Positions 4 to 18,776 of a DNA stretch of 18,776 bases are shown in pieces (the first letter of the stretch is position 1; every line of letters begins with the position of its first letter). This stretch comes from a candidate division WOR-1 bacterium RIFOXYB2_FULL_46_45. GTDB taxonomy: Bacteria; Margulisbacteria; WOR-1; XYC2-FULL-46-14. The stretch is from the NCBI GenBank assembly GCA_001771585.1, contig MEUE01000002.1:1-18776 (forward strand). The letters run 5' to 3'. A program made the position numbers and the translations under genes. Below the pieces are notes generated by a model. It was not told the origin of the DNA, made no database searches, and saw only the letters and a program-made list of their open reading frames with translations.

Positions 4-99
4 TACCACATCTACCGAAAAGGAGGGAAAACAAAAAGGTGGGGGAATGCAGCATAAGGAGAAGAATGAGGGAGGAAACCCCACCCCCACCATTTCTGC
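4..99 (+). repeat. Left terminal inverted repeat (96 bp, perfect)
   Basis: Positions 4-99 are identical to the reverse complement of 18681-18776. The match continues with one mismatch (position 100) to about 107. One strand is strongly purine-rich. Inside the repeat are a dyad of 8-bp arms GGTGGGGG (38-45) and CCCCCACC (84-91), and a 9-bp dyad ATGCAGCAT (47-55). These could be binding sites for an end-recognition protein, which is inference. The identity of both ends is seen directly and marks the window as a bounded element, either a transposon-like insertion or a linear replicon. Confidence 0.97.
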
Positions 100-155
100 G
101 CTATTTTAGGAACGTTTTGGGATAAAGACGGCCTGGGTTAAGAGCTCCAAAAGGA

Positions 156-231: not shown

Positions 232-1701
232 ATGTTCACCGGGGTTGAATATCTAACCCAAGACGAGGTTAGCGCCTTAATCGCTACCCTAAAAAGCTCC
301 CGCGATCTCGCCATTGTCCGGCTTCTGCTCGGTACCGGGGTATATCGAAACGAAATCCACGATCTGAATATTGAGTCAATCGACTGGGAAACCAAGACGC
401 TGCGGTTTAATGGTTCCCGCCCAAGAAAAATCCCCCTAAACGACGAAACATATAACGCCCTGTCGAGCTGGTCGCAGGAAAGAATCGACAACGCGTCAAA
501 CGCCCTGTTCACAACTTCAAGGGGCAAGCCGGTCCGTTTGTCGGCCCGCGCCATCGACCGCCTCATAAAAAAATACGGGGAAGAGGCTGGCATCAAGAAA
601 AGCATCTCGGCTCAGACCCTGCGCAACACCTTCGCGGTCCGCCTTTTTTCCATGGAACCGTCGCTTGATAACGCGGCATATATTTTGGGAATCACCGCTC
701 CCAAAGCGCTCCGCCGCTACCTCAAAGCCGCGCAGATGGAAAAAGCGGGTGGGGTACCCAGGGAGGAACTTTTAAAACTGGATCGGCGGCCGAAGATCGT
801 CAAACAAATCACCAATCTAATCCAACGCAAACCCAAAGAAGCCAGGATCATAGAGCCGGTCCCGATCAACAAAGAGGACTCAACCATCGGCCGCGACGCT
901 CTCCTCGCGGATATCCGCCAAAACCTGGACAAAGGGCTTTCGACTCTTTTGACCGGCGAAATCGGCATGGGAAAGACCCATCTTTTGAAGCTCATCGCCA
1001 AAGAAAAGGGTTGTTTGTATCTGGATTCTCCAACCCCAATCCGGCAGTTTCTCCAAAAGATTTGCGAGAAGTATTGCCCGGACTGGAACAAGCGCCTGCC
1101 GCAGAAAAACCGTTCCGGCGTAAAAGAGATAACCGAGCTGCTTACCGGCGTTTTCGCGGGATGCGCGCGAAAAGAGACGCTGATCATCGACAACCTCGAC
1201 AAACTGCGGCTTTCGGATGTTGGTCCGATTTTGTCGCTTGCCGATTACTTCGTTATCCTAGCCGCCGCGGACGAGACCAAAGAGCGTTTGAAGCAGGTCT
1301 GGTGGAAGTTCAAGAAAATCGAACTGCCGCCGCTTGATTCCGAATCCGAGAAGGCCCTGATCAAGCAGCTGACTGCCGGAATGGTGATCGAGGATTATAA
1401 TTTGCTGGAGACCCACATCATCTCCCTGGCCGGCGGCGTGCCGCTGGCGATTGTGGAGATGGCCAATCAATTGAGCGGCCATCCAAAGATTAAAGATACC
1501 GACGTGCGCGAACTTTACCACGAGTCGGGGGTCCGCTACCGGGACTGGTCGTCGCTCCTTTTTGTCGTCTGGGGCGCGGCGATGGTTTTCCGGTTCCTTG
1601 CTCTGGGGGTGCACAGTTTTGAGAACTATATTTTGGCCGGTTTCAGCATGGCGGTTATCGCAACCGCCACCAGGATTTTGAGAAGTTTTGGGAGGAGATA
1701 A
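232..1701 (+). CDS. Tyrosine recombinase fused to AAA/STAND-like ATPase and membrane tail
   Basis: The 489-aa protein starts directly in a tyrosine recombinase catalytic domain (about 6-170) with no N-terminal core-binding domain. Visible residues are box I Arg39 (in TGVYRNEIHDL), a likely beta-hairpin Lys66, Arg131 in QTLRNTFA and candidate nucleophile Tyr163 in LRRYLKA. Two usual histidines are replaced: HxxR by Gln128-x-x-Arg, and LGH by LGI. Residues 205-430 form a P-loop ATPase with Walker A GEIGMGKT (242-249) and Walker B TLIIDNLD (316-323). The GGVPLAIVEMA motif (401-411) resembles the GxPLA box of STAND/NB-ARC ATPases. The C-terminus has two hydrophobic helices (about 440-457 and 465-480), implying membrane anchoring. 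No SD is seen; the start is supported by the following recombinase-like LTxxEVxxLI motif and by the promoter position. It may be an ATP-regulated recombinase or a DNA-binding partition/end-binding protein; the exact function is unknown. Confidence 0.85.
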   Translation: MFTGVEYLTQDEVSALIATLKSSRDLAIVRLLLGTGVYRNEIHDLNIESIDWETKTLRFNGSRPRKIPLNDETYNALSSWSQERIDNASNALFTTSRGKPVRLSARAIDRLIKKYGEEAGIKKSISAQTLRNTFAVRLFSMEPSLDNAAYILGITAPKALRRYLKAAQMEKAGGVPREELLKLDRRPKIVKQITNLIQRKPKEARIIEPVPINKEDSTIGRDALLADIRQNLDKGLSTLLTGEIGMGKTHLLKLIAKEKGCLYLDSPTPIRQFLQKICEKYCPDWNKRLPQKNRSGVKEITELLTGVFAGCARKETLIIDNLDKLRLSDVGPILSLADYFVILAAADETKERLKQVWWKFKKIELPPLDSESEKALIKQLTAGMVIEDYNLLETHIISLAGGVPLAIVEMANQLSGHPKIKDTDVRELYHESGVRYRDWSSLLFVVWGAAMVFRFLALGVHSFENYILAGFSMAVIATATRILRSFGRR

Positions 1702-1703: not shown

Positions 1704-3011
1704 ATGCTCGCGCCGACGCATAGCGTGTTCGGAGTCTTTTTAACGCTCATCATACTTGCCCTGTTTGGGGTAAAGTTGAGCCTGCATTGGACGATCATGC
1801 TTTTCGCGATACTCGGGGCGCTCCTGCCGGACGCCGACCACCCGGCTTCGATCATCGGCCGGTTCCTTTATCCGATTTCATCGAGAATAGAAAGAAGATT
1901 CGGTCACCGCACCGTCACCCACTCTTTGATCGGCTGGATGAGCGCCACCATCAGCGCAAGTGTCCTAATCGCTTTTGTAAGTTTGATCCCGCTGATTTCA
2001 AGATGGGGCTGGTCGGATCTGCCGGTTCGCTGGGCGGCGGCTTTTTCAATCGGCTACTTTTCCCACATTGTACTTGATATGTTCAACAAGCGCGGCTCAC
2101 AGCTCTTCTGGCCGCAGGAGGTGAGGGATGTTATTCCGCTTAACCACCGCTACCGGATCAATTCCGGCTCCCGTCCCGAAATTGTCGTTTTCATAATCAT
2201 CGTGTTGATGCTGGCTTTGACCCTGCCGATTTCAAAATACGGGATCGGAAGTTCTCTCCACTGGCTTTTGGCGACCTCCGGCTCCGCGATTGAAGAATTC
2301 AAATCGTCAAACCTGGTTTCATATCTGGAATTCAAAGGATATTTCAAAGATACCAAGCAGCCAATCTCCGCCACGGCCGAAATTCTGGATGTGGTTAACG
2401 AAAGGATCGTTATCCTTTTGGACGGCAAAATTTACACCATCAGCGATGAGCTGGCTTCCGATATTATCGCCGAGAAAATGAGAGTCAAGCAGGGGAAGCG
2501 GCCGGTCCAAGTTGAGAGAAAAGAGTTTAAGGACAAAAGCCGTGAATATCTTGAGTCGCAGATACCGGACAAGGCTCTTGTTTCCGGTACGATCCATCTG
2601 CCGGAAGGGATGAAAGTTACTCTCCCCGCCGGCGCCGGCTCGTTTAATATTTTCGAGCAAAAGGGCGGCGATTTATATTTGCGCTTCGCCGGCAAAAAGC
2701 AAATTCGGGAACTGGCGCTGACGGAGCAGTTTGATCTGCAGAGGAAGCGTGATCTGGTCGATCTCTCCGGCTTTCACGCGCGGGCGAGAAAGATCAGAAG
2801 CCAGATTACGGAAGCGGGCGAAGAGTACGAGGGCTTGACGGAACTGGGCAAGCAGGCGCTGTTGGGGAAAGAGGGGATCGAAAAACAGAATGCCCGTATC
2901 GCCGAATTGCAAAGCCAGCTGGCCGAAGTCAATCTGAATATTGAGGAAGTGCAGTTGCGGATAAAATCTAGGAAGTTTGTCTATTCGGGAGAGGTTTATA
3001 TTCGATTGTAG
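1704..3011 (+). CDS. YdjM-family membrane metal-dependent hydrolase with long C-terminal extension
   Basis: This 435-aa protein has the YdjM/DUF457 pattern: His6 in the N-terminal THSVFG, LLPDADHP (40-47), GHRTVTHS (67-74, His68 and His73) and SHIVLDMFNKRG (120-131), followed by LFWP. Hydrophobic segments lie near 10-45, 75-100, 108-125 and 158-178, so it should be an inner-membrane protein with a histidine/aspartate metal site. The substrate of the family is poorly defined. Residues about 200-435 form an unusual soluble extension with a beta-rich part and a charged coiled-coil-like stretch (about 365-420). The SD GGAGGAG lies just upstream, and only two bases separate the gene from the preceding stop, so the two genes form an operon. 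The pairing of two membrane proteins suggests a shared role at the envelope, possibly in transfer or anchoring (inference). Confidence 0.85.
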   Translation: MLAPTHSVFGVFLTLIILALFGVKLSLHWTIMLFAILGALLPDADHPASIIGRFLYPISSRIERRFGHRTVTHSLIGWMSATISASVLIAFVSLIPLISRWGWSDLPVRWAAAFSIGYFSHIVLDMFNKRGSQLFWPQEVRDVIPLNHRYRINSGSRPEIVVFIIIVLMLALTLPISKYGIGSSLHWLLATSGSAIEEFKSSNLVSYLEFKGYFKDTKQPISATAEILDVVNERIVILLDGKIYTISDELASDIIAEKMRVKQGKRPVQVERKEFKDKSREYLESQIPDKALVSGTIHLPEGMKVTLPAGAGSFNIFEQKGGDLYLRFAGKKQIRELALTEQFDLQRKRDLVDLSGFHARARKIRSQITEAGEEYEGLTELGKQALLGKEGIEKQNARIAELQSQLAEVNLNIEEVQLRIKSRKFVYSGEVYIRL

Positions 3012-3080: not shown

Positions 3081-4556
3081 ATGAGAAAACACAGCATTTT
3101 TATAAGCGCAAACCAGAAAGAGCTAAAAGACGAAAGATTGGCTGTCAGGGATGTAATCCAAAACAACGCGGCTCTTAGGAATTTTTTTGATGTCTTTCTT
3201 TTTGAGGATTTGCCGGCCAAAGGGAAACACCCCGTTTCAACATATCTTAAACAGGTTGAGAAAAGCGATATTTACCTGGGAATAATCGGGGATGAATACG
3301 GGGCCAAAGGAAAAGACGGGTATTCCCCAACGGAGAAAGAATTTAGCCGCTTTCTCAAAGCTAATCCCAAGGGCGAGATCATAATTTTTATCAAGGGAAA
3401 AGATGATTCCAAAAGAGACAAAGACACGCGGAAATTCGTAAAAACCGTCAGGGATTCTTTTATCTACAAAAGATTCTTTGGCATAGACGGATTAAAAACC
3501 CAAACATTAAACAGCTTGATTACTTATCTTGACGAAAATGGCGTTCTGGCCAAAAAACCTTTTGACCAATTGGCCCGCAAAGATGTTCCCTACGGAGCGA
3601 TAGACGAAAAACAAGCACAAGATTTTCTGGAAAATAGGGCGGTCAAGCTTAATGTTGCTGTTCCCAAAATTTCCATAAGGGACTTTTTGGTTAAAACCTT
3701 GAAAGTGGTGCAAAAAGAAAACGGCGAGCTACGTCCCACTAATGCCGGACTGCTCTTTTTCGGAAAAGATCCTTCCGCCTATATTCCCCAGAGTGAAATA
3801 AGGATAGCGCGGTTTAAGGGCGTAGACCGCACTGAATTTATGGATTCAAAGGAAATAACGGGTCCTATTTACAAAATGCTGGATGAGGTTGAATTGTTTT
3901 TTAAAAGAAATACCCGCTTAGCCGGAAAGATTGTCGAGTTTAAGCGCGTCGATATCCCCGAATATCCTTTTGAAGCGATAAGGGAAGCGGTCATTAACGC
4001 TGTCGCCCACAGGGACTATGCCTACCACGGAGCGCCGATCATGTTTTCAATATTTGATGACCGGATAGAAATAAGCAATCCCGGCGGCTTATTGCCCGGC
4101 TTAAACATAAAGAGGCTGGAAGGGCATCATTCCACCAGGAATAAAAAGATCTGCGATATTTTCCATGAGACAAAGGATATGGAAAAATTCGGCACCGGCA
4201 TCGGAAAAATGAAAAGGATTATGAATGAACACGGGTTGGCCAAGCCGGTATTTTGGGAAGAAGGGGATTTCTTTGTGGCAAAGTTTTACGGCCCCGGAGA
4301 AAAGATTTTAGATCTGGTTCCAAATATACCAGCGGAGAGACAGACAGATTTGCGGGAATTAGGGTTAAATGACAGGCAGATTGAAGCCTTGCGGCTAATG
4401 ATGAATGAAGGCGAAAAAATAACAATCAAAAAATATGTCAGATTATCTGGAAACATCAGTGGCAAAACAGCCCAAAGAGACATAAAAAGACTAGTTGAAA
4501 TTGGATTTGTTAAAAAAACAGGATATAAAAAGGGGGCATATTTTGAGGCGGCATAG
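3081..4556 (+). CDS. DUF4062 / GHKL-ATPase (RecG-related regulator type) / winged-helix protein
   Basis: The 491-aa protein has three parts. Residues 1-130 match DUF4062 (start KHSIFISANQKELKDERLAV, then YLGIIGDEYG), a TIR-like fold family found beside nucleotide-binding and conflict proteins. Residues about 165-410 match the divergent ATP-binding domain of proteins usually labelled RecG-related or AlbA_2-type regulators: an N-box EAIREAVINAVAHRDY (298-313), DDRIEISNPGGL (326-337) and a glycine lid FGTGIGK (370-376). Residues about 427-491 look like a winged helix. The usual N-terminal AlbA_2 DNA-binding domain is replaced by DUF4062. It heads the cargo operon, behind its own promoter and a dyad, and could be a regulator or a sensor/effector of the defence block. 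The domain calls are good; the function is inferred. Confidence 0.85.
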   Translation: MRKHSIFISANQKELKDERLAVRDVIQNNAALRNFFDVFLFEDLPAKGKHPVSTYLKQVEKSDIYLGIIGDEYGAKGKDGYSPTEKEFSRFLKANPKGEIIIFIKGKDDSKRDKDTRKFVKTVRDSFIYKRFFGIDGLKTQTLNSLITYLDENGVLAKKPFDQLARKDVPYGAIDEKQAQDFLENRAVKLNVAVPKISIRDFLVKTLKVVQKENGELRPTNAGLLFFGKDPSAYIPQSEIRIARFKGVDRTEFMDSKEITGPIYKMLDEVELFFKRNTRLAGKIVEFKRVDIPEYPFEAIREAVINAVAHRDYAYHGAPIMFSIFDDRIEISNPGGLLPGLNIKRLEGHHSTRNKKICDIFHETKDMEKFGTGIGKMKRIMNEHGLAKPVFWEEGDFFVAKFYGPGEKILDLVPNIPAERQTDLRELGLNDRQIEALRLMMNEGEKITIKKYVRLSGNISGKTAQRDIKRLVEIGFVKKTGYKKGAYFEAA

Positions 4557-4576: not shown

Positions 4577-4603
4577 AATGTCCCTAAAAATGTCCCTAAA
4601 AAC
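4577..4603 (+). repeat. Out-of-frame tandem repeat coding KNVPKNVPKN
   Basis: Two tandem copies of AATGTCCCTAAA lie just past the stop codon of the GHKL-ATPase gene. Read in the frame beginning at 4577 they encode NVPKNVPKN. From memory, such NVxKN/NVTEN repeats occur as linkers between the ATPase and winged-helix parts of this protein family. The copies are neither in frame with nor inside the upstream gene, so they look like a remnant of an alternative C-terminus. Confidence 0.5.
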
Positions 4604-4619
4604 AAAGGCAAAAAATATC

Positions 4620-5159
4620 ATGAAAAAATTCATCTGTCTTTTGTTGATAACCTGTTTCCTGATCCCTGTTTTTCAGATCCCAATTTTCGCAGCAGAATAT
4701 GTCCTTGCGCCGGGTGATACATTGGAAGTTAAAATCCTCGGCAAAAAAGATCTCGACACCAAACAAACCATCGCTCCCGACGGAACCATCTCTCTGCCTT
4801 TTTTGGGCAGAGTGGAAGCACAAGGGCAAACGCTGAAAGAATTCAACAACAACCTAAAATCTGCTTTTTCGAGATACATAGCAAATGCTCAAGTAGTCGT
4901 CTTTCTAACTCCCCGGCCGATTTATGTAATTCAGCATGATATCAAAAAGAACGTTTGGGATGTGAAGAAAGCCGAATCGGTTGATGAAGCGCGCGCGTAT
5001 CTGGGTCCCCCTGATAAGGGGGACTACAGGGGGTTAAAGCATGGTGATATTGTAGCCGTCTCCGTCAGCCAAAAGCCCGATTGGTGGGAGGATAATTGGT
5101 ATAAGGTACTCACAGGGGTGGCGGTTGCGGTGGGAGTTTATGCTACTTTACACAAATGA
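4620..5159 (+). CDS. Secreted polysaccharide-export-domain protein (short Wza-like)
   Basis: Starting at 4620 gives 179 aa with a clear signal peptide (MKK, hydrophobic core to about 22, cleavage near IFAA/EY); an earlier ATG at 4578 would only add a repeat-coded leader. The mature N-terminus YVLAPGDTLEVKILG through DGTISLPFLGRVEAQGQTL matches the Poly_export domain of Wza-type outer-membrane export proteins. The protein is about half the usual length and lacks recognisable SLBB repeats and a lipobox. It ends in a hydrophobic segment (about 162-177). A repeat-like insert encodes residues near GPPDKGDYRG. Its stop overlaps the SNF2 gene start as ATGA, suggesting translational coupling. It may be an envelope partner of the defence cargo or a hitchhiking gene. 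Confidence 0.8.
   Translation: MKKFICLLLITCFLIPVFQIPIFAAEYVLAPGDTLEVKILGKKDLDTKQTIAPDGTISLPFLGRVEAQGQTLKEFNNNLKSAFSRYIANAQVVVFLTPRPIYVIQHDIKKNVWDVKKAESVDEARAYLGPPDKGDYRGLKHGDIVAVSVSQKPDWWEDNWYKVLTGVAVAVGVYATLHK
5006..5035. repeat. Interspersed-type palindromic repeat inside the export-domain gene
   Basis: A C5-type arm followed by GATAAGGGGGACTACAGGGGG makes a short hairpin, with pyrimidine and purine blocks around a GATA loop. It codes in frame for the GPPDKGDYRGL part of the protein. From memory, the same motif is a frequent interspersed repeat in several bacterial phyla, so it probably inserted into the reading frame. Confidence 0.55.
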
Positions 5160-8098
5160 ATATCACTGACTACCATGCGAAATATTTTGCTTATGAACTG
5201 ACTAAACGATGTGCTTCGGATAGCTTAGAGAAACTGTCTTCAACTCTCTCTAACGCGCAAGTTGACCTTAATCCTCATCAGATTGAAGCAGCACTTTTTG
5301 CCTTTAGATCTCCGCTTTCAAAGGGTGCGATTTTGGCCGATGAAGTTGGATTGGGAAAGACAATTGAAGCGGGGCTAGTCCTTTCCCAAAAATGGGCGGA
5401 AAGAAAAAGAAAAATTCTGCTGATTGTCCCTTCCAGTTTACGTAAACAATGGAACGCGGAGCTTCAAGAAAAGTTTTTTTTGCCGTCGATTATTTTGGAG
5501 ACAAAATCATTTAACCAATACGTAAAAGACGGGAATCTTAATCCCTTTGACCAAGAGGGGGTTATCGTTATTAGTTCGTACCATTTTGTTAGGGCAAAAG
5601 CGTCTTATGTTAAACAAACAAAATGGGATATTGCCGTTATTGATGAAGCCCACCATCTTCGCAATGTGTATAAATCAAGCAATAAAATAGCCAAGGAGAT
5701 AAAAAACGCCTTGAGCGAGGTGCCGAAGATATTGCTGACCGCGACTCCCTTGCAAAATTCATTGCTTGAATTATACGGACTGGTTAGCGTGATTGATGAT
5801 CATCTGTTCGGCGACCTGAAAAGTTTTAAGGCGAAATATGCCCGCGTCTCACGCGAGCAGGATATTTTTGAGAGTGAGCTTGGATTGGTGGAGCCAAAAC
5901 AGGAGATGTTTACCGATCTTCGTAATCGTTTAAAACCGGTATGCACGCGTACCCTGCGCCGGCAGGTTCTGGAATATATCAAATACACCAAGCGCATCCC
6001 TTTAACCCAGGATTATGTGCCAACCGAACAGGAAACAGAGCTTTACAACGGCATGTCCGAGTATCTCCAGCGGCCGAAGTTGTTCGCTCTTCCTTCAAGC
6101 CAGCGCCAGTTAATTACTCTTATCCTGCGCAAGCTTCTTGCCTCTTCATCCTTCGCGATTGCCAGTACCCTCGATAGTTTGGTTTATAAGCTGCAAAAAC
6201 TTATTGAAGAAGCCGAGAACCGGCAGTTTATCGAAGATACCGGCATTGCGGGACTCGACCAGAACTTTGAAAATTACGATGAGCTTTATGATGAATGGAA
6301 TGACAACGAGGAAGATGAGGAAGAAGAAGAGGACAAAAAAGTTATTTATACCAAAGAAGATATTGAATTAATGAAAACAGAACGGAATGATCTTGAAAAA
6401 TACCGCGATTTAGCCAAGGAAATATGGAAAAACTCAAAAGGGGAGGCCTTGCTTACCGCTCTCAAAAAGGGCTTTGAAATGGCGACGGAATTAGGGGGCA
6501 GAAAAAAAGCGATTATTTTTACCGAATCGAGGATTACCCAAGATTATCTTTTGGAATTGCTTTCAAAAGACGGCTACGCCGGAAAAATAGTTCTTTTTAA
6601 CGGAACAAATAGTGACCAAAGGTCAAAAGAGATATATCGGGACTGGTTAGCGAAATATAAAGATTCGGACAAAGTTACCGGTTCCAAAACAGCCGATTCA
6701 CGAGCCGCCATTGTGGAACATTTTAGGGATGAGGCGGAAATCATGATCGCGACCGAAGCCGGCGCGGAAGGGGTCAATCTCCAATTTTGTTCGCTCCTGA
6801 TTAATTACGATCTCCCCTGGAACCCCCAGCGGATTGAACAGCGGATTGGGCGCTGCCACCGCTATGGGCAGAAGCATGATGTGGTGGTAATCAACTTTGT
6901 AAACCGCAAAAACGCTGCCGACCAGCGTGTTTATGAACTGTTGGACCAGAAGTTCAGTTTATTTAAGGGTGTGTTTGGAGCGAGCGATGAAGTGCTGGGA
7001 AGCATTGAGTCGGGAGTTGATTTTGAAAAACGCATCGCCGCAATTTACCAGTCTTGCCGTTCGGAGGACGCGATCAATTCCGCTTTTGATGCCCTCCAGG
7101 AAGAAATGGAAGACAGCATTCAGCATAATTTGAGCGATACGCGCCAGAAATTGCTGGAAAATTTTGACTCCGAAGTGCATGAGCGGTTAAAAGTAAACAT
7201 TCGCGAAAGCAGGGAATATCTTGGTGTTTATGAAAAGTGGTTATGGGATATTACGCGATATTATTTGGGTGATAATGCCGACTTTATTGAAAAGGATTAT
7301 TCTTTTACGCTTAAAAACAATCCTTTTCCGGAAGAAAAGATCGATTCCGGCCCTTACAAGATCGGTAAAAATGTGGAAGACGCGCATATTTACCGGCCGG
7401 GGCACATATTGGCGCAGAAAATTTTAAGCGAACTGAAAAAGAAATCTTCTCAAGAAGCCGAAGTATTATTTGATTATTCAAAAAATCCGACGATCATTTC
7501 GGTCCTAAAGCCGCTGGTAGGTAAAAGCGGCATTATGAAGGTTAGCAATTATACGGTAGAGGCGTTTGAGGCGGAAGATCATGTGATTGTTTCCGCGATA
7601 GACGAGAAAAGCGAACCGATCGCGCAGGATATTGCCAAGAAACTCTTTTATCTTTCGGCGGAAGTGAGGCCAGCGGCCGCGAACCTTTCCGAAGACGAGA
7701 AAAAAAGGGCAAATGAGTTGGAAGAGCGGGAGATTGGGCTTATTTCATCAAAGAGCGCCGAACGCAACAGTGAATTTTTTGACAATGAAGTCGATAAGCT
7801 TGATAAATGGGCGGATGACATGAAGACGGCGCTCGAGCTTGATTTAAAGAGGCTGGATATTGAGATTAAAACCGCCAAGACGCAGGCCAAGAAGATCCTT
7901 AATTTGGAGGAAAAAGTCAAAGTCCAACGCGGGATAAAGGATCAAGAAAAAAAGCGCAATGAGATGAGGAAAAAATTATATGAGGCGCAGGATGAGGTTG
8001 ATACCAGAAAAGAGCAGCTTATTGAGCGGGTGGAAGCGCGGCTTAAACAGAGGATCAAGCTGGAAACGCTGTTTTGTTTGAGGTGGAAGGTAGTATAA
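5156..8098 (+). CDS. SNF2/RapA-family helicase (DrmD-like)
   Basis: This 980-aa superfamily 2 ATPase has motif I DEVGLGKT (62-69), motif II DEAH (163-166), motif III LLTATPLQN, and lobe-2 motifs TEAGAEGVNLQ and RIEQRIGRCHRYGQ. The order and spacing are those of RapA/HepA and of DrmD, the SNF2 helicase of class 1 DISARM. An acidic, Glu-rich insert at about 375-400 separates the two lobes, and the C-terminal 130 residues are charged and coiled-coil-like. The ATG sits in ATGA with the preceding gene. Lying upstream of a Mod/Res pair, it probably translocates on DNA to support restriction or exclusion of foreign DNA. No other DISARM core gene (drmA, drmB, drmC) is seen. Confidence 0.9.
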   Translation: MNITDYHAKYFAYELTKRCASDSLEKLSSTLSNAQVDLNPHQIEAALFAFRSPLSKGAILADEVGLGKTIEAGLVLSQKWAERKRKILLIVPSSLRKQWNAELQEKFFLPSIILETKSFNQYVKDGNLNPFDQEGVIVISSYHFVRAKASYVKQTKWDIAVIDEAHHLRNVYKSSNKIAKEIKNALSEVPKILLTATPLQNSLLELYGLVSVIDDHLFGDLKSFKAKYARVSREQDIFESELGLVEPKQEMFTDLRNRLKPVCTRTLRRQVLEYIKYTKRIPLTQDYVPTEQETELYNGMSEYLQRPKLFALPSSQRQLITLILRKLLASSSFAIASTLDSLVYKLQKLIEEAENRQFIEDTGIAGLDQNFENYDELYDEWNDNEEDEEEEEDKKVIYTKEDIELMKTERNDLEKYRDLAKEIWKNSKGEALLTALKKGFEMATELGGRKKAIIFTESRITQDYLLELLSKDGYAGKIVLFNGTNSDQRSKEIYRDWLAKYKDSDKVTGSKTADSRAAIVEHFRDEAEIMIATEAGAEGVNLQFCSLLINYDLPWNPQRIEQRIGRCHRYGQKHDVVVINFVNRKNAADQRVYELLDQKFSLFKGVFGASDEVLGSIESGVDFEKRIAAIYQSCRSEDAINSAFDALQEEMEDSIQHNLSDTRQKLLENFDSEVHERLKVNIRESREYLGVYEKWLWDITRYYLGDNADFIEKDYSFTLKNNPFPEEKIDSGPYKIGKNVEDAHIYRPGHILAQKILSELKKKSSQEAEVLFDYSKNPTIISVLKPLVGKSGIMKVSNYTVEAFEAEDHVIVSAIDEKSEPIAQDIAKKLFYLSAEVRPAAANLSEDEKKRANELEEREIGLISSKSAERNSEFFDNEVDKLDKWADDMKTALELDLKRLDIEIKTAKTQAKKILNLEEKVKVQRGIKDQEKKRNEMRKKLYEAQDEVDTRKEQLIERVEARLKQRIKLETLFCLRWKVV

Positions 8099-9719: not shown

Positions 9720-11447
9720 ATGAACAAGCCCAAACTTGAACTAACCTGGATCGGTAAAAACAATCCTGAGTACGATATTGCAAATATTGAGCCCCGAATT
9801 TTAGAAGAAAATCCGAAGCTTTCCAATTGCGCCAACGACCCGAATACCGAGAATATGATAATTCATGGTGACAATCTGCTCGCGCTAAAGGCGCTCTTGC
9901 CTGAATACGAAGGCAGGGTAAAGTGCATCTACATTGACCCCCCTTACAATACTGGTAATGCTTTTGAGCACTACGACGATAGCGTGGAACACAGCACTTG
10001 GCTGTCCCTTATGAGGCCAAGACTAGAATTATTGAAGATGCTCTTGAGGGATGACGGGGTAATTTTTGCGCAGATAGATGACAATGAGATGGCGTATCTA
10101 ACAATCATTATGGATGATATCTTTGGTCGAGAAAATCGTATCAATATTATTTGCGTTAAAATGTCCGAAGCGACCGGGGTAAAGATGTCTCACGCCGATA
10201 AACGATTTCCCAAGTTAAAAGAATTTATTTTATTTTATAAAAAAGATGTTTCTCCGGAAATTAAACCCGTTAAAATACGGTCGGGAAAATGGAATAACGA
10301 ATATAAGGAAATATTATGCGGTATAGATAAGAATACATTAAATGAAATCAAACTATTGATGGATGAAAACAAATCAAACGCAATAAATTTATCAAAAGTA
10401 AATAGCTTTTTAAAAGACACAAAGATAAAAACATTAGCAAAATATTTTAAGGAAGAGAATGTTGCAGAATCGGAACAAGACAGCTTTAAGTGGAACAATT
10501 CGTGGAGGATAATCCAAGCCGTCGGAGCAGGCAGCATTAAAGAGCGAGCTAAACAGGCGGTTATTGAAGGGCAAGATATTTCAGTCGTTCTTTCCGCAAG
10601 AAATAAGCTTTACCTTTTTAAGTCCGAATTTGACAATTATTCCAAGGATCCTCGAATAAGAATAATTTTTGCGGATAAATATTTAGAATATAACCCGGGA
10701 GATTTTTGGACCGACATTAAAACGAGTGGGGGAATTGGCCAAGAAGGCGGTGTTTTTTTCCCTCAAGGAAAAAAACCAGAAGCATTAATTTATAGAATTC
10801 TAAATTCTACAACAAGACAGAATGACTTGGTTCTTGATTCTTTTCTCGGTTCTGGCACAACTGCCGCAGTAGCCCATAAAATGGGGCGAAAATATATTGG
10901 CCTTGAAATGGGTGAGCATGCTTATACGCATTGCAAGGTGCGATTGGATAAGGTGATTGACGGCACGGATCAGGGTGGTATCAGCAAAACAGTTGAGTGG
11001 AAAGGCGGCGGAGCGTATAAGTTTTATGAACTGGCACCAAGTTTTATTGTAAAAGACGAGTTTGGTAATCCAGTGATTGATGGTTTTTATAACGATACCA
11101 AGCTTATCAAAGCGATGTGTAAGCTGATGAATTTTACTTACAAGCCAAGTCAAACCGAATATTGGAAGCATGGCGTTGGGCAAGGCAAAAATTATCTCTA
11201 TGTGACAACCCAGCTTCTTACAAGTGCAATGATTCAGCAGATTGCTGGGCATCTTGCCGAAGGTGAGTCGCTGATTATTTCTCCTAAAAAATATGAGCCG
11301 GGTGCGGATAAAATTGACAGCCGTATTACGATTAAGAAAATTCCGCAGTCAGTTTTAAAAGCTTGCCATTTTGGTAAAAAAGAATATTTATTACCGATTA
11401 AAGAATCCGCCCTGGAAGAAATTGAGATTGAAGAGGATAACGACTAA
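9720..11447 (+). CDS. mod: Type III DNA methyltransferase (Mod)
   Basis: The 575-aa protein has motif IV DPPYNTG (from 73) before motif I DSFLGSGTT (373-381), the order of beta-class amino-methyltransferases such as Type III Mod; the likely product is N6-methyladenine. Residues about 145-335 between them hold the target-recognition region and are coded by much more A+T-rich DNA (about 10.2-10.7 kb) than the flanks, as expected for an exchangeable specificity segment. An SD-like GGGGAGG is upstream. The gene is followed after five bases by res. In the complex, Mod recognises and methylates one strand of the site and directs Res. All key motifs are intact. Confidence 0.95.
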   Translation: MNKPKLELTWIGKNNPEYDIANIEPRILEENPKLSNCANDPNTENMIIHGDNLLALKALLPEYEGRVKCIYIDPPYNTGNAFEHYDDSVEHSTWLSLMRPRLELLKMLLRDDGVIFAQIDDNEMAYLTIIMDDIFGRENRINIICVKMSEATGVKMSHADKRFPKLKEFILFYKKDVSPEIKPVKIRSGKWNNEYKEILCGIDKNTLNEIKLLMDENKSNAINLSKVNSFLKDTKIKTLAKYFKEENVAESEQDSFKWNNSWRIIQAVGAGSIKERAKQAVIEGQDISVVLSARNKLYLFKSEFDNYSKDPRIRIIFADKYLEYNPGDFWTDIKTSGGIGQEGGVFFPQGKKPEALIYRILNSTTRQNDLVLDSFLGSGTTAAVAHKMGRKYIGLEMGEHAYTHCKVRLDKVIDGTDQGGISKTVEWKGGGAYKFYELAPSFIVKDEFGNPVIDGFYNDTKLIKAMCKLMNFTYKPSQTEYWKHGVGQGKNYLYVTTQLLTSAMIQQIAGHLAEGESLIISPKKYEPGADKIDSRITIKKIPQSVLKACHFGKKEYLLPIKESALEEIEIEEDND

Positions 11448-11452: not shown

Positions 11453-14305
11453 ATGAAACCAGAAGAAGCGCTTAAATATCTAAGTGGAGCGATGAGCTTG
11501 CGTGCTCCACAAGCAAAAAGCTTAGAACTCTTTGCTGGTTATTTGCAATCGCCAGCAGGGCAAAAATTGCTGGCGCGCATGAACAGGGAAATCAAGAGGG
11601 ATACGGCTGATATCCTTTTAGAAAGTAAAAAATATTTTAGTGCTATTCCTGAAGCACGAGAGTTTGAGGAATATGAAAGAGCCTTTCCGGCTTACACTTT
11701 TGCCTTGGCTACCGGAGTAGGCAAGACCAGGTTGATGGGTGCTTTTGTAGCTTATTTATACTTGGTTTATAATATTCAGCATTTTTTGATTGTTGCGCCC
11801 AATTTGACCATCTATCGCAAGCTTTATGATGATTTTAGTAAGGCCAATAATCCTAAGTATGTATTTAAGGGTCTTCAGGAAGTAAATACAAGTACTGTAA
11901 AAGTTATTACCACCGACAATTACACTGATTATAGACAACAATCACTTTATAAGAATCAAATTGAAATAAACATATTTAATGTTCAGCAATTTGCGCAAAA
12001 AGACATGGCTGCTGGTCGAGGCATAGTTAAAGGCTCGGAAATATATGGGCAAAAGGATGACGGAACCCTTGCTTCATATTTTGATTATCTTAAGGAATTG
12101 GATGATTTAGTAGTAATGCTTGATGAGGCTCATCATTATCATGCCGATGCTGCGCTTGGTGCCTTAGATATTCTTGATCCAATTTTTGGTCTGGAAATGA
12201 CAGCTACGCCGTATCTTGGGACGCAAGGATCAGGAAGAAACGCGCGCCAAATAAGGATGAAAAATGTTCTGTATTCCTACAACCTCGGTGATGCAATAAG
12301 GGGAAAGCTGGTTAAAGATCCGTGGGTAGGCACAGAAGCCGATGTGGATTTTAGCCAGTTTGATCCTGATTCGATAGAGACAGATGCGCGCAAATTGCAA
12401 CTTGCGGCCTTTTTTCACGAACGCGCTAAAAACGCGCTTAAAGAATATGCGCTGGAAAATAATAAGCCGATCGTAAAACCGGTTTTGTTGGTGGTTGCTA
12501 AAGATACAAAACACGCAGGAGCGTTGCGCGCCTTAATTAATAGTGATGATTTTCGTGGCGGAGAATTCAAAGGCAAGGTTATTGAGATACATACTAAACT
12601 TCGTGGGGATGAGGCTGATGAAAATATTGAAAAACTGATATTGCTGGAACACCCTGATAATCCTGTAGAGATTGTTATCCACGTTAACATGCTCAAAGAG
12701 GGGTGGGATGTGACCAATGTTTATACCATCGCACCGTTGCGTGAGGCAGCCGCGGCAATTTTAACCGAGCAAACAATTGGCCGCGGTTTGCGCTTGCCTT
12801 ATGGGGAAAGAACTGGAGTCCCTTTGGTGGATCGATTAGTGCTTGTCGCACACGAACAATTTGCTAGAGTCGTGGCGCTTGCTAAGGATTCACCGCTTAT
12901 TCAAGGACAAGTAGAGCAAATTTCTGAGCGGGAAGTCAAAGAAATAAAGGTGCTGACCGAAGTCCAACCAGTTATTCTTGATATGGTAGAAAAGGAAATA
13001 ACGCAAAATAAAGTGATAATGCAGGAGGTACAGAAGAATGCGGAAGAATTGGTTTTAAAGCAGCCACAATCAGAGACTATGGAAACTGGTGTGCGAGAAC
13101 AATTTGTTGAGGCTAAAAAAGCAGAAATAATTAGTGGCCTAACTAAAGAAACAATCAAAAATATCCAGTTTTCTAAGTATCACGGTCAACAGCCGAGTAC
13201 TACGACTGAATTGTCCTTTGGCCCCGATACCTTGTTTGGGGCCTTCAGCATTGAAGCAAAAGACGAGCTTTCCAATATTGCTAAAAAATCCGAAGAGACC
13301 ATGGAAAAAAGGAACATACCAATTCCCCGATTAATGCTTACTCCTAGTTTTGGCGAGCTTATTCTTGAACAGTTTGACCTAGACACAAGCATTGATAAAT
13401 TGCGCTCATATACCAATGAGCGGGCTATCCTTGAAGAGCAATTGCAAAATGACCGTGAGAAAAATCTATTTGGCGAAGAAGTCCCAGGACGCAAAATGTC
13501 GCAACTGACTAGGGTGACCAGTTTTGGTGGGCACACTAGGCAAACTCCACAAAGTACAATTATTGCCGCACTTTTAGATTTTCCTTTAGTTGATTATGAT
13601 GATCCTGCGCAAAAACCGTTGCTTTTGAAATTAGCCGAGCAAGCTGTGGCGCATTATAGTAAAAAAGCGATTGATGATGACAATTTAGCGTTGATTATTG
13701 AGAGCAACGCTCGATCTATAGCCGAAGATATTTATAAACAGATATTGAATCATAAGGAATTACGATCCGAAGGGTATCTTGAGTCCAATATTCGGGAGCC
13801 CAAGCCATATTTGGAAAATTATAATATTTCTTTGTCGTTTGGAGAAAAGCCTTTTTCGCTAGAGTCGCAGATAGACACGTTTAATGCAAAGATAGTTTTT
13901 GGCTACTTTAAAAAGGCCTGCCATTTTATGTATCGATTTGATTCATCTGACGAGGCAAGACTGGCTTATTTGTTGGATAGGGATGAGGCGGTTGAGGATT
14001 GGTTGCGTCCAGCGCCGAATCAGTTTGAAGGGCTGTACTGGCGAGATGCGGAAGGTGAATCTCACCATAGATATGAACCGGATTTTGTTGTGGAATTAAA
14101 AGATAGGATTGTTTTGGTCGAAGTTAAGCCGGAGAGTGAGATTGACACCTCAAGCGTCCAAGCGAAAAAGACAACTGCAGAGAAGTATTGTGAAGTAGTT
14201 AATAAAAATATCGGTAAATATGGCATTGTTAAGCCATGGAAGTATGTGATAGTACCAACGGAGAGGATAACGATTCAGTCGACGGTTATAGGTTTGTTAC
14301 TTTAG
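11453..14305 (+). CDS. res: Type III restriction endonuclease subunit (Res)
   Basis: This 950-aa protein has superfamily 2 helicase motifs: Walker A ATGVGKTR (86-93), DEAH (224-227), TATPY, and motif VI QTIGRGLRLP. The C-terminus carries a PD-(D/E)xK-type nuclease, PDFVVEL with Asp877, then Glu890 and Lys892 in LVEVKPE. Full length with both active centres present, it should be an active Res that uses ATP to communicate between unmodified sites and cut DNA together with Mod. It is the last gene of the cargo operon. No clear hairpin terminator follows its stop. Confidence 0.95.
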   Translation: MKPEEALKYLSGAMSLRAPQAKSLELFAGYLQSPAGQKLLARMNREIKRDTADILLESKKYFSAIPEAREFEEYERAFPAYTFALATGVGKTRLMGAFVAYLYLVYNIQHFLIVAPNLTIYRKLYDDFSKANNPKYVFKGLQEVNTSTVKVITTDNYTDYRQQSLYKNQIEINIFNVQQFAQKDMAAGRGIVKGSEIYGQKDDGTLASYFDYLKELDDLVVMLDEAHHYHADAALGALDILDPIFGLEMTATPYLGTQGSGRNARQIRMKNVLYSYNLGDAIRGKLVKDPWVGTEADVDFSQFDPDSIETDARKLQLAAFFHERAKNALKEYALENNKPIVKPVLLVVAKDTKHAGALRALINSDDFRGGEFKGKVIEIHTKLRGDEADENIEKLILLEHPDNPVEIVIHVNMLKEGWDVTNVYTIAPLREAAAAILTEQTIGRGLRLPYGERTGVPLVDRLVLVAHEQFARVVALAKDSPLIQGQVEQISEREVKEIKVLTEVQPVILDMVEKEITQNKVIMQEVQKNAEELVLKQPQSETMETGVREQFVEAKKAEIISGLTKETIKNIQFSKYHGQQPSTTTELSFGPDTLFGAFSIEAKDELSNIAKKSEETMEKRNIPIPRLMLTPSFGELILEQFDLDTSIDKLRSYTNERAILEEQLQNDREKNLFGEEVPGRKMSQLTRVTSFGGHTRQTPQSTIIAALLDFPLVDYDDPAQKPLLLKLAEQAVAHYSKKAIDDDNLALIIESNARSIAEDIYKQILNHKELRSEGYLESNIREPKPYLENYNISLSFGEKPFSLESQIDTFNAKIVFGYFKKACHFMYRFDSSDEARLAYLLDRDEAVEDWLRPAPNQFEGLYWRDAEGESHHRYEPDFVVELKDRIVLVEVKPESEIDTSSVQAKKTTAEKYCEVVNKNIGKYGIVKPWKYVIVPTERITIQSTVIGLLL

Positions 14306-15137: not shown

Positions 15138-15173
15138 GCCTGCGTATCACTCTGGTACGCGGGCTTCTTTTTT
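15138..15173 (+). terminator. Terminator between convergent operons
   Basis: Arms GCCTGCGTA (15138-15146) and TACGCGGGC (15156-15164) pair with one G-U and are followed by TTCTTTTTT. The stop codon of the leftward recombinase (15147-15149) lies in the loop, so the hairpin may also help end that transcript. Confidence 0.85.
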
Positions 15174-16103
15174 GGTCGTTTTCTCCCTCGGATGGTGTTT
15201 TTTGAGAACCCTTTTCAAATCGGAGATCGCGACTCTGGTATAAATTTGCGTCGAACTCAAAGAAGCGTGCCCCAAAAGCGCTTGAACATGGCGGATGTTC
15301 ATTCCGTTGTTTACCAGATGAGTCGCGCAAGTATGCCGAAAGGTGTGGGGGCTAACTTTTTTCGTAAGCTTCGCCATCCTGGCATATTTTTTTATAGTCG
15401 CGTCAAGGCAGGAGTGTCCGATTCGAGTGCCCCGATTTGACAAAAAAAGCGCGTCGGTCGGTTTAAAGTCGCGCAGAAATACCGGCCGGATATGACAAAG
15501 GTATCCTTCCAGGCATTGGCAGGCGGTCTTTCCGATCGGGACATAACGATCTTTGTTCCCTTTTCCATGGCGAACCATCAGCGTCGCGTTGGGGCAGTCG
15601 AGATCGGACAAATCCAAGTTTCGCAGCTCCTCGTTCCTGATCGCGGAAGAATAGAACAGTTCCAGAATCGCCCGATCGCGGTAGCCGGTGGGAGTCTGAT
15701 GATCCGGCTGTTCAAGTATCTTTTTCGCTTCCGCGGGAGAGAGGATATCTCTGGGGAGGCACTTGGGTTCTCTCGCGTACCTGATCCCCCTGGTCGGGTC
15801 TTTTAAGATAAAATCGTTGTCTGCCATGAAACGACAAAAGTAGATCGCGATTTTAAGGGTGTTGTTTTGTGATTTTACGGCGTTATTCCGGCCAAATTTG
15901 TTTTTCTCGCCGGCGATAAAGGCCTGATAATCTTGTAAAAGTTCCTTTGTGATCTGATCGGGAGAATCAACTTGGTAACTTTTCAAATAGCCCATAAACT
16001 TGCCCAAAGTCCCGCGGTAGTTTCCAATGGTCCGGCGGGAGAAGTTGGCGATTAAGAGCGACTCAATATATTTCGCCGCCAGATGTTCAATGCTTAATCC
16101 CAT
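15147..16103 (-). CDS. Tyrosine recombinase B
   Basis: This 318-aa XerC/D-like integrase is complete: an N-terminal SAM-like core-binding domain (about 5-100, including RRTIGNYRGTLGKFM) and a catalytic domain with Arg156 (AIRNEEL), Lys184 region (GKGNKDRYVPI), His253-x-x-Arg256 (HTFRHT), His279 (LLGHAS) and nucleophile Tyr288 (STQIYTR). The start has an SD AGGGGGAA and overlaps the end of recombinase A by 17 bases, so the two are coupled and may act as a heteromeric pair, as XerC/XerD or TnpA/TnpB of Tn554 do. It would cut and join the element's ends or resolve multimers. Confidence 0.95.
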   Translation of the reverse strand: MGLSIEHLAAKYIESLLIANFSRRTIGNYRGTLGKFMGYLKSYQVDSPDQITKELLQDYQAFIAGEKNKFGRNNAVKSQNNTLKIAIYFCRFMADNDFILKDPTRGIRYAREPKCLPRDILSPAEAKKILEQPDHQTPTGYRDRAILELFYSSAIRNEELRNLDLSDLDCPNATLMVRHGKGNKDRYVPIGKTACQCLEGYLCHIRPVFLRDFKPTDALFLSNRGTRIGHSCLDATIKKYARMAKLTKKVSPHTFRHTCATHLVNNGMNIRHVQALLGHASLSSTQIYTRVAISDLKRVLKKHHPREKTTKKEARVPE

Positions 16104-17019
16104 TTAAATTCCCCCTTTCCCTCGGATGATATTTTTGGTGAAAATCTTTAAGTGTAGAGATATTAACCTGGGTATAAATTTGGGTAGACTCGATGCTTGA
16201 ATGCCCCAACATGGCTGAGATCGCGTGCAGCGGTGCCCCTTCTTCTAAAAGATGAGTCGCGAAACAATGCCTGAAGGTGTGGGGATGGAGCGCCTTGGTG
16301 ATTCCGGCCTTCTTTTTGATCCTGACAATAATGCTCCACAGTCCTTCTTTGGACAAGTGTGATCTTTCTCCCTCCGCCAGGAAGAGATAGGGGAGATGAG
16401 GGGCGAGATTAGTCCTTATTTTCAAATAGCGCTCCAGCCAGCCGGCGGCGCTTTTCCCAAGCGGCAGCTGGCGGTCTTTTTTTCCTTTCCCTTCATGCAC
16501 AAAAAGGGTGCCGCCCTTTGGGTCAACATCAGTCATCTTTAAATTCAAAAGCTCGCCGCTGCGCAGGCCGCAGCCGTAAAACAATTCCAGTATCGCGCGC
16601 AGTTTTATTCCGCGAAAAGAATTCACATCCGGAACATCCATGACGCGGACCATCTCTTCTTTGCTCAAAAGGCTTTTCGGTAATGTCGCTTCAGTTTTTG
16701 GCGCCCGCAATCTGCTGGCCGGATTGTGGCCGATCATCTCCTTATCTTCCAGGAGATTATAGAAGCGTTTTAGGGCGAGGATATAATAGTAAAGAAATTT
16801 GGGGCCGCTCTTTTGGCCGTAATGGTTAACCTCGTTGAAGACGGAAGTTAAAAAAGTATTGAGTATGTCGGGGGTGGTGTTTTGGAGATCGATATTGATT
16901 TTTTCCAGGAACCCCAAAAAGCGCCTGATTTTAAACCAGAGTATCTTGATACTTGCCGGCGCCAGCTGGTTTGCTTTAAGGTAATCGGAGAATTCATCAA
17001 GAAGCTTTTGGTTATCCAT
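16087..17019 (-). CDS. Tyrosine recombinase A
   Basis: Starting at 17019 (MDNQKLLDEFSDYL) gives a 310-aa standard integrase; a longer frame to 17169 would add a tail with no family match. Residues 1-95 form the core-binding domain. Catalytic residues are Arg153 (GLRSGE), the Lys180 region (GKGKKDRQLPL), His247-x-x-Arg250 (HTFRHC), His273 (LGHSS) and Tyr282 (IYTQV), a full set. An SD-like GGGGGAAG precedes the ATG, which overlaps the end of the ATPase gene as ATGGATAA. It is similar in layout to recombinase B but clearly divergent, suggesting an old duplication with separate roles. Confidence 0.95.
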   Translation of the reverse strand: MDNQKLLDEFSDYLKANQLAPASIKILWFKIRRFLGFLEKINIDLQNTTPDILNTFLTSVFNEVNHYGQKSGPKFLYYYILALKRFYNLLEDKEMIGHNPASRLRAPKTEATLPKSLLSKEEMVRVMDVPDVNSFRGIKLRAILELFYGCGLRSGELLNLKMTDVDPKGGTLFVHEGKGKKDRQLPLGKSAAGWLERYLKIRTNLAPHLPYLFLAEGERSHLSKEGLWSIIVRIKKKAGITKALHPHTFRHCFATHLLEEGAPLHAISAMLGHSSIESTQIYTQVNISTLKDFHQKYHPRERGNLNGIKH

Positions 17020-18637
17020 ATCTCTTCCCCCGCCCAGCGCCCAGAGACACTTTTTTGCTTTTCCCGCTTCCAAAATCTGGGCTACGCCCAGATTTACCCA
17101 GATTTCCAGCTTGCCCCGAGCGAAGTCGAGGGGGTGATAAATTAATTTTGAGGCGGTCGTTGCCGTCAATTCCGCTGTTTAGCTGGTAGTAATATTTCTT
17201 GCGTGGTCCGCCCGAGATCGGGATCAGATATTCAAGGTCGCGCAGCTCTTTGATGTGGGTCTTAATCTGATAGTGTCCCCATAGGGTAAAATCGCGCACT
17301 TCTTTCCTGGTGAATTTGGTTTCATTACTATCGGTTGATTTCCCGACCATCTCTTTGATGGCATTCAAGAGCGTCCGGCTCGACGGCGACAGTTCTTCCA
17401 GAGTATGCGCGAAAATTTGTTGGGCTAAGTCGTTGGCTCTTTTGATGTCGTCGGGAATTACTTCAATATATGGAACTTCTTTCCCTTGGAGATTGACGCT
17501 TTTCTGTTTCCTCTGATGTTGATTAAGAAAAGCGATGGTCTTGATCAAGTTCAGGTATTTTCGATGGTCCCTTCGGGTGCGCAGGGTTTCGTCGTTAAAG
17601 GTTAAACTTTCAGCGTAGGGATTTATAACTTTAACCGGATAGAGGAGCCGCTGGGCGTTCTGATGTTTTTTGATTATTTTTTCCGTCTGCTCTCTTATCA
17701 GCAAGCCCTTCAAGGTCTCAAGCTCCCGCTGTCTTTGCAAAATCTGCCTGGTCTGCTCCTGCGATTCATCGATGGTCAACCGCAAAAAGCGGTTCGCGGT
17801 CTCATAATCCATCTGGACATTCGAGGTTGTAAAGAAGATGCTGACCGGCCCTTTTACCCGATAGACCTCGGTCTTAAGTTTGCCGGTAGAAGAGTCCCGT
17901 CCGGTCGTCGCGATCGACAGATGTTTTGAAGATTGGATCGCGCGCAGGGAATAGTTTGCCTCTTTCGAGCCGGCCTCTTCTTCAATCGCCAGGACCTTGT
18001 TTTGCAGAGCGAATTCGTCCTGATAGAAGAGTGCTTTGCCGGTCAAGGCGGTGTACTTGACAAAGTCCTCCGGAGGGAGGAGGGAGAGGATCGCGTCTTG
18101 AAGTGATGATTTTCCGGCGGCGCTCCTTGAAGTTATCATAATTGAGAGTGGATCATCCAGTTTTCGGGAAGTGATCGCCAGATACGCCGTCAGTTTATTC
18201 ATCTCTTCGCCGATGTAGCCAAGGGACGACAGGTCTTTGGTTATTTCCTCAAACAGGGTGGGGGACTTCAGGAATTCAAGGGCTTCGGTCCTCTCTTTCG
18301 CGCCCATGATTTCCAGCTTGCCGCCCGATGCCGGACTCCCCTTTTTCAGTTCTTCTTTTTTCTCTTCCAGGAGAGTGATGATTTTATTCAAGTCGCTTTC
18401 GACGGTTTTGAATTCTTCTTCAAGCAGGACGGAACAGTTTTTTGCAAACGCCCTCCGGGCGGCGCTTGAATAGAGGTTTACGATGTCGATGTGATAACGG
18501 TCTTTCGCGTCGTCATTTTTGAAGACCTTGGCGTTTACTTTTAACTGATAGGCCGCGAACTGGATATTTTTAAAAACATAACAACGGTCTTTAATCGTGA
18601 TATATATCCCATCTTCGACCAATTGTGTCTTGATCAT
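17012..18637 (-). CDS. Primase-associated helicase-like ATPase (lacking CHC2/Toprim part)
   Basis: This 541-aa protein matches the ATPase half of CHC2 zinc-finger primase-like proteins of mobile elements: MNKLTAYLAITSRKLDDPLS, a Walker A variant SRSAAGKSS (170-178, Ser in place of the first Gly), Walker B VLAIEEEAGS (215-224), sensor-like FFTTSN (269-273) and ANRFLRL with a likely arginine finger. The N-terminus instead has about 70 unrecognised residues and a charged coiled coil (75-105). A C-terminal winged-helix-like region (about 425-490) precedes a Gly/Ser/Lys-rich tail (490-541) that contains a repeat-coded PPRLRSGQAG. The SD AAGGAG lies seven bases from the ATG, only 43 bases inside the right terminal repeat. 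It is probably a replication or end-processing motor. Confidence 0.85.
   Translation of the reverse strand: MIKTQLVEDGIYITIKDRCYVFKNIQFAAYQLKVNAKVFKNDDAKDRYHIDIVNLYSSAARRAFAKNCSVLLEEEFKTVESDLNKIITLLEEKKEELKKGSPASGGKLEIMGAKERTEALEFLKSPTLFEEITKDLSSLGYIGEEMNKLTAYLAITSRKLDDPLSIMITSRSAAGKSSLQDAILSLLPPEDFVKYTALTGKALFYQDEFALQNKVLAIEEEAGSKEANYSLRAIQSSKHLSIATTGRDSSTGKLKTEVYRVKGPVSIFFTTSNVQMDYETANRFLRLTIDESQEQTRQILQRQRELETLKGLLIREQTEKIIKKHQNAQRLLYPVKVINPYAESLTFNDETLRTRRDHRKYLNLIKTIAFLNQHQRKQKSVNLQGKEVPYIEVIPDDIKRANDLAQQIFAHTLEELSPSSRTLLNAIKEMVGKSTDSNETKFTRKEVRDFTLWGHYQIKTHIKELRDLEYLIPISGGPRKKYYYQLNSGIDGNDRLKINLSPPRLRSGQAGNLGKSGRSPDFGSGKSKKVSLGAGRGKRYG
17114..17133. repeat. Interspersed-type repeat in the ATPase C-terminal tail
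   Basis: CCCCGAGCGAAGTCGAGGGG is an imperfect palindrome. On the minus strand it encodes the PPRLRSGQ part of the tail. From memory this sequence and peptide recur in many genomes of uncultured bacteria as an inserted repeat. Its presence suggests the ATPase originally ended near residue 490 and was extended. Confidence 0.6.
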
Positions 18638-18680
18638 TTAATGACTCCTTTAAAAGCTAGATAATGGAATTAAAAATAGA

Positions 18681-18776
18681 GCAGAAATGGTGGGGGTGGG
18701 GTTTCCTCCCTCATTCTTCTCCTTATGCTGCATTCCCCCACCTTTTTGTTTTCCCTCCTTTTCGGTAGATGTGGTA
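18681..18776 (-). repeat. Right terminal inverted repeat (96 bp, perfect)
   Basis: The exact reverse complement of 4-99, with its internal dyad at 18689-18696 and 18735-18742. The window ends on its last base. The adjacent ATPase gene begins just inside it, so the repeat probably lies in or next to that gene's promoter. Confidence 0.97.

Follow-up and report, generated by a model that had tools for sequence, protein, structure and literature searches.

Recombinase-derived DNA-binding proteins have been described in SPbeta-type phages, whose repressors MrpR and SroF (PDB 8A0A; SroF, 9rgl) have a tyrosine-recombinase fold in which Arg I, the His and the His/Trp residue are lost and the tyrosine is kept. 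In MrpR of phage SPbeta, this tyrosine is crucial for DNA binding according to the authors, and the protein shows no recombination (PMC10516654). Like MrpR, the protein described here, a fusion of a recombinase domain with an ATPase and a membrane tail, has lost a similar residue set. Unlike the fusion, MrpR, a DNA-binding regulator without recombination, retains the catalytic lysine and the core-binding domain, is soluble, and has neither an ATPase nor a membrane tail. Nearest to the N-terminal domain of the fusion in both sequence and fold are archaeal XerA (matched by our family profile A1 at E = 1.4e-24) and bacterial XerC/XerD, which, in contrast to the fusion, possess a core-binding domain, lack a fused ATPase, and are complete enzymes. 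Dimer resolution by FtsK–XerCD also pairs a membrane-anchored ATPase with Xer-type DNA binding, but FtsK belongs to the HerA/FtsK superfamily and translocates DNA, whereas the fusion combines an AAA_22/STAND-like ATPase with a degenerate active site.

The genes near the fusion and its relatives recall other systems. An energised inner-membrane unit with adaptor-like proteins and an outer-membrane channel next to it is likewise a feature of tripartite TolC–HlyD/MacA systems (type I secretion, efflux). In those systems, the unit is an ABC, RND, or MFS pump, whereas here it would consist of a STAND ATPase and a YdjM hydrolase, and no ABC, RND, or MFS pump is annotated in the plasmid operons that we read. 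The likeness to type IV secretion coupling proteins (VirD4/TrwB) lies in a TrwB_AAD_bind/DUF87 protein encoded after YdjM on cyanobacterial plasmids; the loci that we read in Margulisbacteria, Thermus, and Gammaproteobacteria have no such protein.

Architecture, conservation, and active site of the fusion protein

The window, that is, the whole stretch of DNA analysed, is 18,776 nt long and constitutes the entire contig C2 of the genome of the Margulisbacteria member WOR-1 bacterium RIFOXYB2_FULL_46_45. Its features are as follows:

4–107 (+), left arm of a 104-nt terminal inverted repeat
232–747 (+), tyrosine-recombinase catalytic-domain fold, N-terminal part of the fusion protein, residues 1–172 (Pfam Phage_integrase, Foldseek match to XerA 5hxy, XerA alignment)
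880–1491 (+), AAA/STAND-type ATPase domain of the fusion protein, residues about 217–420 (Pfam AAA_22, invariant residues)
1549–1692 (+), two-helix membrane hairpin, C-terminal part of the fusion protein, residues 440–487 (alignment, AlphaFold2 model, hydropathy scan)
1704–3011 (+), YdjM-type membrane metal-dependent hydrolase (residues 1–176) followed by a beta domain with a long helical hairpin (Pfam YdjM, E = 2e-27; AlphaFold2 model)
3081–4556 (+), DUF4062 protein with a RecG-C-terminal-like domain (HATPase_c_4), variable cargo between YdjM and Poly_export (Pfam)
4578–5159 (+), exported Poly_export (Wza/GumB-like) protein, the recurrent third partner (Pfam Poly_export, E = 9e-22)
5156–8098 (+), DISARM DrmD-like SNF2 helicase, cargo (PADLOC/NCBIfam)
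9720–11447 (+), type III methyltransferase, cargo (E = 3e-137)
11453–14305 (+), type III restriction enzyme, cargo (E = 5e-126)
15147–16103 (−), ordinary Xer-like tyrosine recombinase, the probable mobility gene of the element (Pfam, E = 2e-43)
16087–17169 (−), second Xer-like tyrosine recombinase (Pfam, E = 3e-44)
17012–18637 (−), ATPase related to part of toprim/CHC2 primase-helicases (sequence match)
18673–18776 (−), right arm of the 104-nt terminal inverted repeat, 99 per cent complementary to the left arm

The fusion gene is a single open frame (positions 232–1701, forward strand) encoding 489 amino acids. Pfam assigns residues 7–167 to Phage_integrase (E = 4e-22) and residues 236–334 to AAA_22 (E = 3e-7). 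According to both Pfam and the alignment, the N-terminus coincides with the start of the catalytic domain, and the core-binding domain is absent, bearing out a preliminary description of this DNA. The central domain has the features expected of a STAND/AAA ATPase and is assigned to that class on its motifs: a Walker A P-loop (GEIGMGKTH, near residues 241–250), a Walker B stretch with its acidic residue (LIIDNLD), and a GxP-type motif (GxPLAI). Relatives of this ATPase also match NB-ARC and nSTAND1. The two C-terminal hydrophobic helices span residues about 440–458 and 464–487 in an AlphaFold2 model and are joined by a conserved loop (RFxALGxHSFExYILAG); a hydropathy scan scored only the first helix in the window copy and both helices in most homologues, and the protein is predicted to insert into the membrane. 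The model, built from ten family members (mean pLDDT 70, pTM 0.38), contains a recombinase fold, a P-loop domain, and the two C-terminal helices; because its pTM is low, it does not give the mutual arrangement of the domains. Foldseek searches with the N-terminal part returned XerA 5hxy as the top match (E = 3.5e-11), and SroF 9rgl was structure match 33 of the fusion model. Directly upstream of the fusion gene, at positions 168–189, lies a perfect 22-nt palindrome, ACCTGCCTGCCGGCAGGCAGGT.

A homologue search across 74 Margulisbacteria genomes found matches in 10 of them, and nine genomes carry full-length copies (n = 11, including the window copy; two are in the window's own genome). Because there are eleven full-length copies in nine genomes, the fusion is not an assembly artefact, and the identical order of the three parts in all of them is far beyond chance. 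The preliminary description was thus right to treat recombinase fold, ATPase, and membrane tail as one protein, and the two elements that it had singled out for a conservation check, Walker A and the pair of helices, are both conserved. Walker A residues G245, G247, K248, and H250 are invariant in the family, as are D320 of Walker B (IIDNL) and P404 of the PLAI motif. Among the remaining homologues, one (genome G054) is a contig-end fragment, and another (G030:C41, L037:5065–5898) is missing the ATPase and has a linker between its degenerate recombinase domain and the membrane hairpin. When viral contigs were searched with the family alignment, no relative of the fusion was found; a phage collection yielded short integrase-domain matches and nothing for the ATPase half.

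We examined the active site by aligning the fusion with XerA 5hxy and 4a8e and with both Xer proteins encoded in the window. Opposite catalytic Arg I of XerA (TGVRVGEL), the fusion has Tyr38 (TGVYRNEI), and all family copies that cover the site have Tyr, Phe, or Ser there. At the residue after it, Arg39, most homologues have Leu or Ile, and two have Arg. The beta2–beta3 hairpin is shortened, and its lysine is Asn in the window and Lys in two of ten family members. HxxR is changed to QxxR in the window (the family has Gln, Lys, or Leu in place of that His), and LGH to LGI, the H/W residue being Ile in the whole family. Arg131 and Tyr163 are invariant. The preliminary description had therefore read both histidine changes and the retained tyrosine correctly, and its statement that the arginines remain holds for Arg131 and fails for Arg39, which is not conserved and lies one position off the Arg I site.

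Judged by these residues, the window protein probably does not function as a DNA recombinase. The losses, together with the MrpR precedent, lead us to infer that the Margulisbacteria fusion has lost catalysis and binds a DNA site, and DNA binding is the most likely candidate function of the degenerate domain by analogy. Here, a tyrosine recombinase has apparently become a DNA-binding part attached to the membrane. The missing catalytic residues also argue against a telomere resolvase, and the homologue in genome G064 sits in a single-contig chromosome without ends of the telomere-resolvase type.

The ATPase–YdjM pair and its envelope partners

The YdjM gene of the window starts 2 nt after the fusion gene. 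A YdjM gene in the same direction lies downstream of the fusion in 11 of 12 untruncated Margulisbacteria loci, directly or after variable cargo; the exception is the second fusion copy of the window's genome (L024:7919–9376, contig C4, 48 per cent identical), which has no YdjM neighbour. Poly_export follows downstream in the same order in seven Margulisbacteria loci, and the gap between YdjM and Poly_export holds other genes in other genomes. Two more Poly_export paralogues, 85 and 56 per cent identical, are located away from the fusion genes on contig C3 of the window's genome (L101:8135–8650 and L102:8566–9156), and one of them adjoins L035-like cargo.

Beyond Margulisbacteria, tblastn searches of plasmids recovered full fusions in Bacteroidota (Spirosoma, Flavobacterium, two Haliscomenobacter plasmids, and Flammeovirga) and stand-alone ATPase-plus-tail proteins in Methylobacter, Nitrosococcus, Allochromatium, Thermus, and Synechocystis. 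The Bacteroidota fusions retain R-K-HxxR-H-Y, and, judging from these residues, may be active membrane-attached recombinases; a tree of the Margulisbacteria and Bacteroidota fusions does not choose between one and separate origins. As a separate plasmid gene, ATPase-plus-tail is found in Thermus, Gammaproteobacteria, Cyanobacteria, Fusobacteria, and Thermococcus. A profile built from Margulisbacteria, Bacteroidota, and gammaproteobacterial ATPases matches the proteins of Thermus (8e-35), Thermococcus (2e-34), Fusobacteria (4e-25), and Cyanobacteria (5e-22 to 3e-11), against a best unrelated (decoy) sequence at 2e-4. Separate genes for the parts, which the preliminary description had named, like unconserved arginines, as counting against its reading, thus exist for the ATPase-tail half in five other groups, the full fusion being found in Margulisbacteria and Bacteroidota. 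Because the recombinase domain is absent from most of this wider family, DNA binding by the ATPase protein is not a core function.

In each of the 19 inspected plasmid loci with a sequence-confirmed ATPase (a raw count), a YdjM-type hydrolase gene is in the vicinity, no more than five genes away. Thirteen of these loci were reached by the fusion or ATPase query (tblastn); the other six (Synechococcus, Picosynechococcus, Thermococcus, Stanieria, Fusobacteria, and Anabaena) were reached by the YdjM query, with the ATPase then confirmed by the profile, and are not independent tests of the pairing. The hydrolase frame of Flammeovirga is short and broken-looking. Two more cyanobacterial plasmids carry an adjacent ATPase–YdjM pair by annotation, and a conjugative Methylotuvimicrobium plasmid with a YdjM match has no recognised ATPase partner. 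The pair thus extends over six bacterial phyla and one archaeal plasmid. Neither PADLOC nor NCBIfam assigned the ATPase or YdjM to a specific family, and the pair, like the fusion, is apparently unnamed, without a description in the open-access literature searched. MOB-suite types each of the 21 plasmids reached with the ATPase-tail query as non-mobilizable, without the relaxase of a mobilizable plasmid (again a raw count).

Genes for envelope proteins recur beside the pair. In Thermus, a TolC-family gene lies between the ATPase and YdjM (OEP, E = 5e-12), and YdjM itself has a fused lipoyl and coiled-coil tail. The annotated order on Nostoc plasmid pANSO36C is ATP-binding protein, metal-dependent hydrolase, DUF87, HlyD, TolC, and thermonuclease. 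In cyanobacterial proteins that occupy the HlyD position, a coiled coil is enclosed by two lipoyl halves, and the products of the genes that follow are alike among themselves and weakly OEP-like. The outer-membrane factor and periplasmic adaptor are clear in Nostoc and Thermus, whereas the window has only Poly_export and the modelled hairpin of its YdjM protein. In a moderate AlphaFold2 model, the tail of the latter forms a beta domain with a long helical hairpin, whose best Foldseek match among adaptors is MacA, a weak one (E = 0.2); the fit to a periplasmic adaptor is suggestive only. The cyanobacterial DUF87 protein matches TrwB_AAD_bind (E = 7e-11), and relatives of it are encoded on YdjM-bearing plasmids of Synechococcus, Synechocystis, and Nostocales. 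Such a coupling-protein-like gene was seen beside the pair in Cyanobacteria only, and none was seen in the window.

Some neighbours of the plasmid ATPases might stand in for the recombinase domain. In Anabaena, the gene upstream of the ATPase encodes a KfrA_N DNA-binding domain, and its position in this one plasmid suggests that it could replace the recombinase domain. The KfrA family is tied to plasmid stability. Two Synechocystis plasmids encode 188-aa stand-alone site-specific integrases about 2 kb upstream of the ATPase (L054:5091–5657 and L116:211–777), possibly the recombinase domain as a separate gene; the one included in our tree did not group with the fusions. We also considered the gammaproteobacterial upstream gene as a split-off recombinase domain and dropped it, as it has no Pfam match and an exported-looking sequence; its likeness to TolC was by eye only, and tests of that likeness failed. 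On unrelated plasmids, genes of the thermonuclease family are repeatedly found close to the module (L115:9219–9815, L057:12162–12848, L108:3925–4398, and L054:13774–14445).

Candidate functions of the module

We lean, with a little more than even confidence, toward the view that the fusion is the inner-membrane ATPase of a plasmid- or island-borne envelope complex, in which a recombinase fold without catalysis binds DNA. The conserved core, as sequence conservation and gene neighbourhood show, is the STAND/AAA ATPase with its two-helix membrane tail and the YdjM-type membrane hydrolase encoded close by, and the two would form a putative complex with outer-envelope parts that, by annotation and profile matches, differ by lineage: Poly_export in Margulisbacteria, TolC in Thermus, and HlyD plus TolC in Cyanobacteria. 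In Margulisbacteria, the non-catalytic recombinase fold would bind a DNA site on the element and so hold the element's DNA at the membrane complex, and ATP binding or hydrolysis might switch or assemble that complex. Counting against this explanation, STAND ATPases are usually switches and not transport motors. Its boldest form, a special case that we advance tentatively as possible and rather unlikely, is a DNA-transfer apparatus that has gone unrecognised, serving plasmids and islands typed as non-mobilizable through the ATPase-tail and YdjM core and a TolC/HlyD-like conduit. For DNA recognition, it would use exchangeable modules, in Margulisbacteria the dead recombinase domain and in Cyanobacteria perhaps a KfrA-like protein, and some lineages would add a coupling-protein-like translocase. 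The main rival to DNA transfer is plasmid tethering, in which the complex would serve segregation by attaching the replicon to the membrane: a centromere-like site would be bound by the recombinase-fold domain or by another DNA-binding partner, and the ATPase would act as a membrane switch. We regard such maintenance as doubtful, to about the same degree as transfer: on plasmids of Thermus, Stanieria, Haliscomenobacter, and Flavobacterium, genes for ParA, ParB, or Rep lie close to the pair, the Anabaena neighbour has a KfrA_N domain, and the core is also present on a Thermococcus plasmid, where an outer-membrane conduit is not expected; however, the recurring HlyD, TolC, and Poly_export partners are left unexplained, and several of these plasmids already have a ParA system.

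A role in defence, with a STAND-like sensor and a membrane effector (the YdjM hydrolase) damaging the envelope upon phage infection, would agree with the STAND-like ATPase domain, with the DrmD-like and type III restriction genes that surround the fusion in the window as in a defence island, and with the differences in neighbouring cargo between genomes. We nevertheless consider it improbable, given that PADLOC reports only weak P-loop matches for the ATPase and YdjM, that the pair is often near rep and par genes on plasmids, and that a defence system would not be expected to have a dedicated outer-envelope channel. Least probable by far is the ATP-controlled, membrane-attached working recombinase of the preliminary description, which would have to act with an active site reduced to Arg131 and Tyr163. 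The invariance of Arg II and the tyrosine and the Bacteroidota relatives with a full catalytic set in the same fusion speak for it, but Arg I and both His are missing in all Margulisbacteria copies covering those sites, the lysine is not conserved, and MrpR, with comparable losses, shows no recombination (PMC10516654).

Many plasmids have no recognised means of spread. A conserved pair that occurs mostly on plasmids typed as non-mobilizable, with genes for envelope-spanning and coupling-protein-like products beside it, makes a testable candidate for the mechanism of transfer or anchoring that is missing, and genetically tractable hosts with the module exist in Synechocystis PCC 6803 (pSYSX) and Thermus. 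If true, our reading of the fusion as the DNA-binding ATPase of an envelope complex would extend the conversion of recombinases into DNA binders beyond the soluble MrpR.

Cargo, mobility genes, and ends of the window

The locus in G064 contains a gene 74 per cent identical to that of the DrmD-like helicase of the window. Large serine recombinases of one family are encoded near the module or its remains (L024:263–1789, L034:3–1880, L035:757–2268, and L105:5549–7054), one of them about 6 kb from the second fusion copy of the window's genome; the window and G064 have tyrosine recombinases in their place, as if mobility genes had been exchanged. Toprim/CHC2 primase-helicase relatives of the ATPase at 17012–18637 occur on plasmids of Leptospira, Janthinobacterium, and others, and one adjoins xerC.

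The preliminary description had also proposed that the protein tethers DNA ends via the terminal repeat. We rejected such tethering as the function of the family, as no comparable inverted repeat flanks the G064 homologue and the 104-nt repeat is found neither elsewhere in the window's genome nor in viral contigs. The other three contigs of the genome join at their ends without C2 (overlaps of 75 and 51 nt; a 483-nt repeat, 85 per cent identical, at two starts), and the window may therefore be a separate replicon. At its left end, an extra GTA precedes TACCAC, and both ends read as one palindrome, as from hairpin ends or a circular junction.
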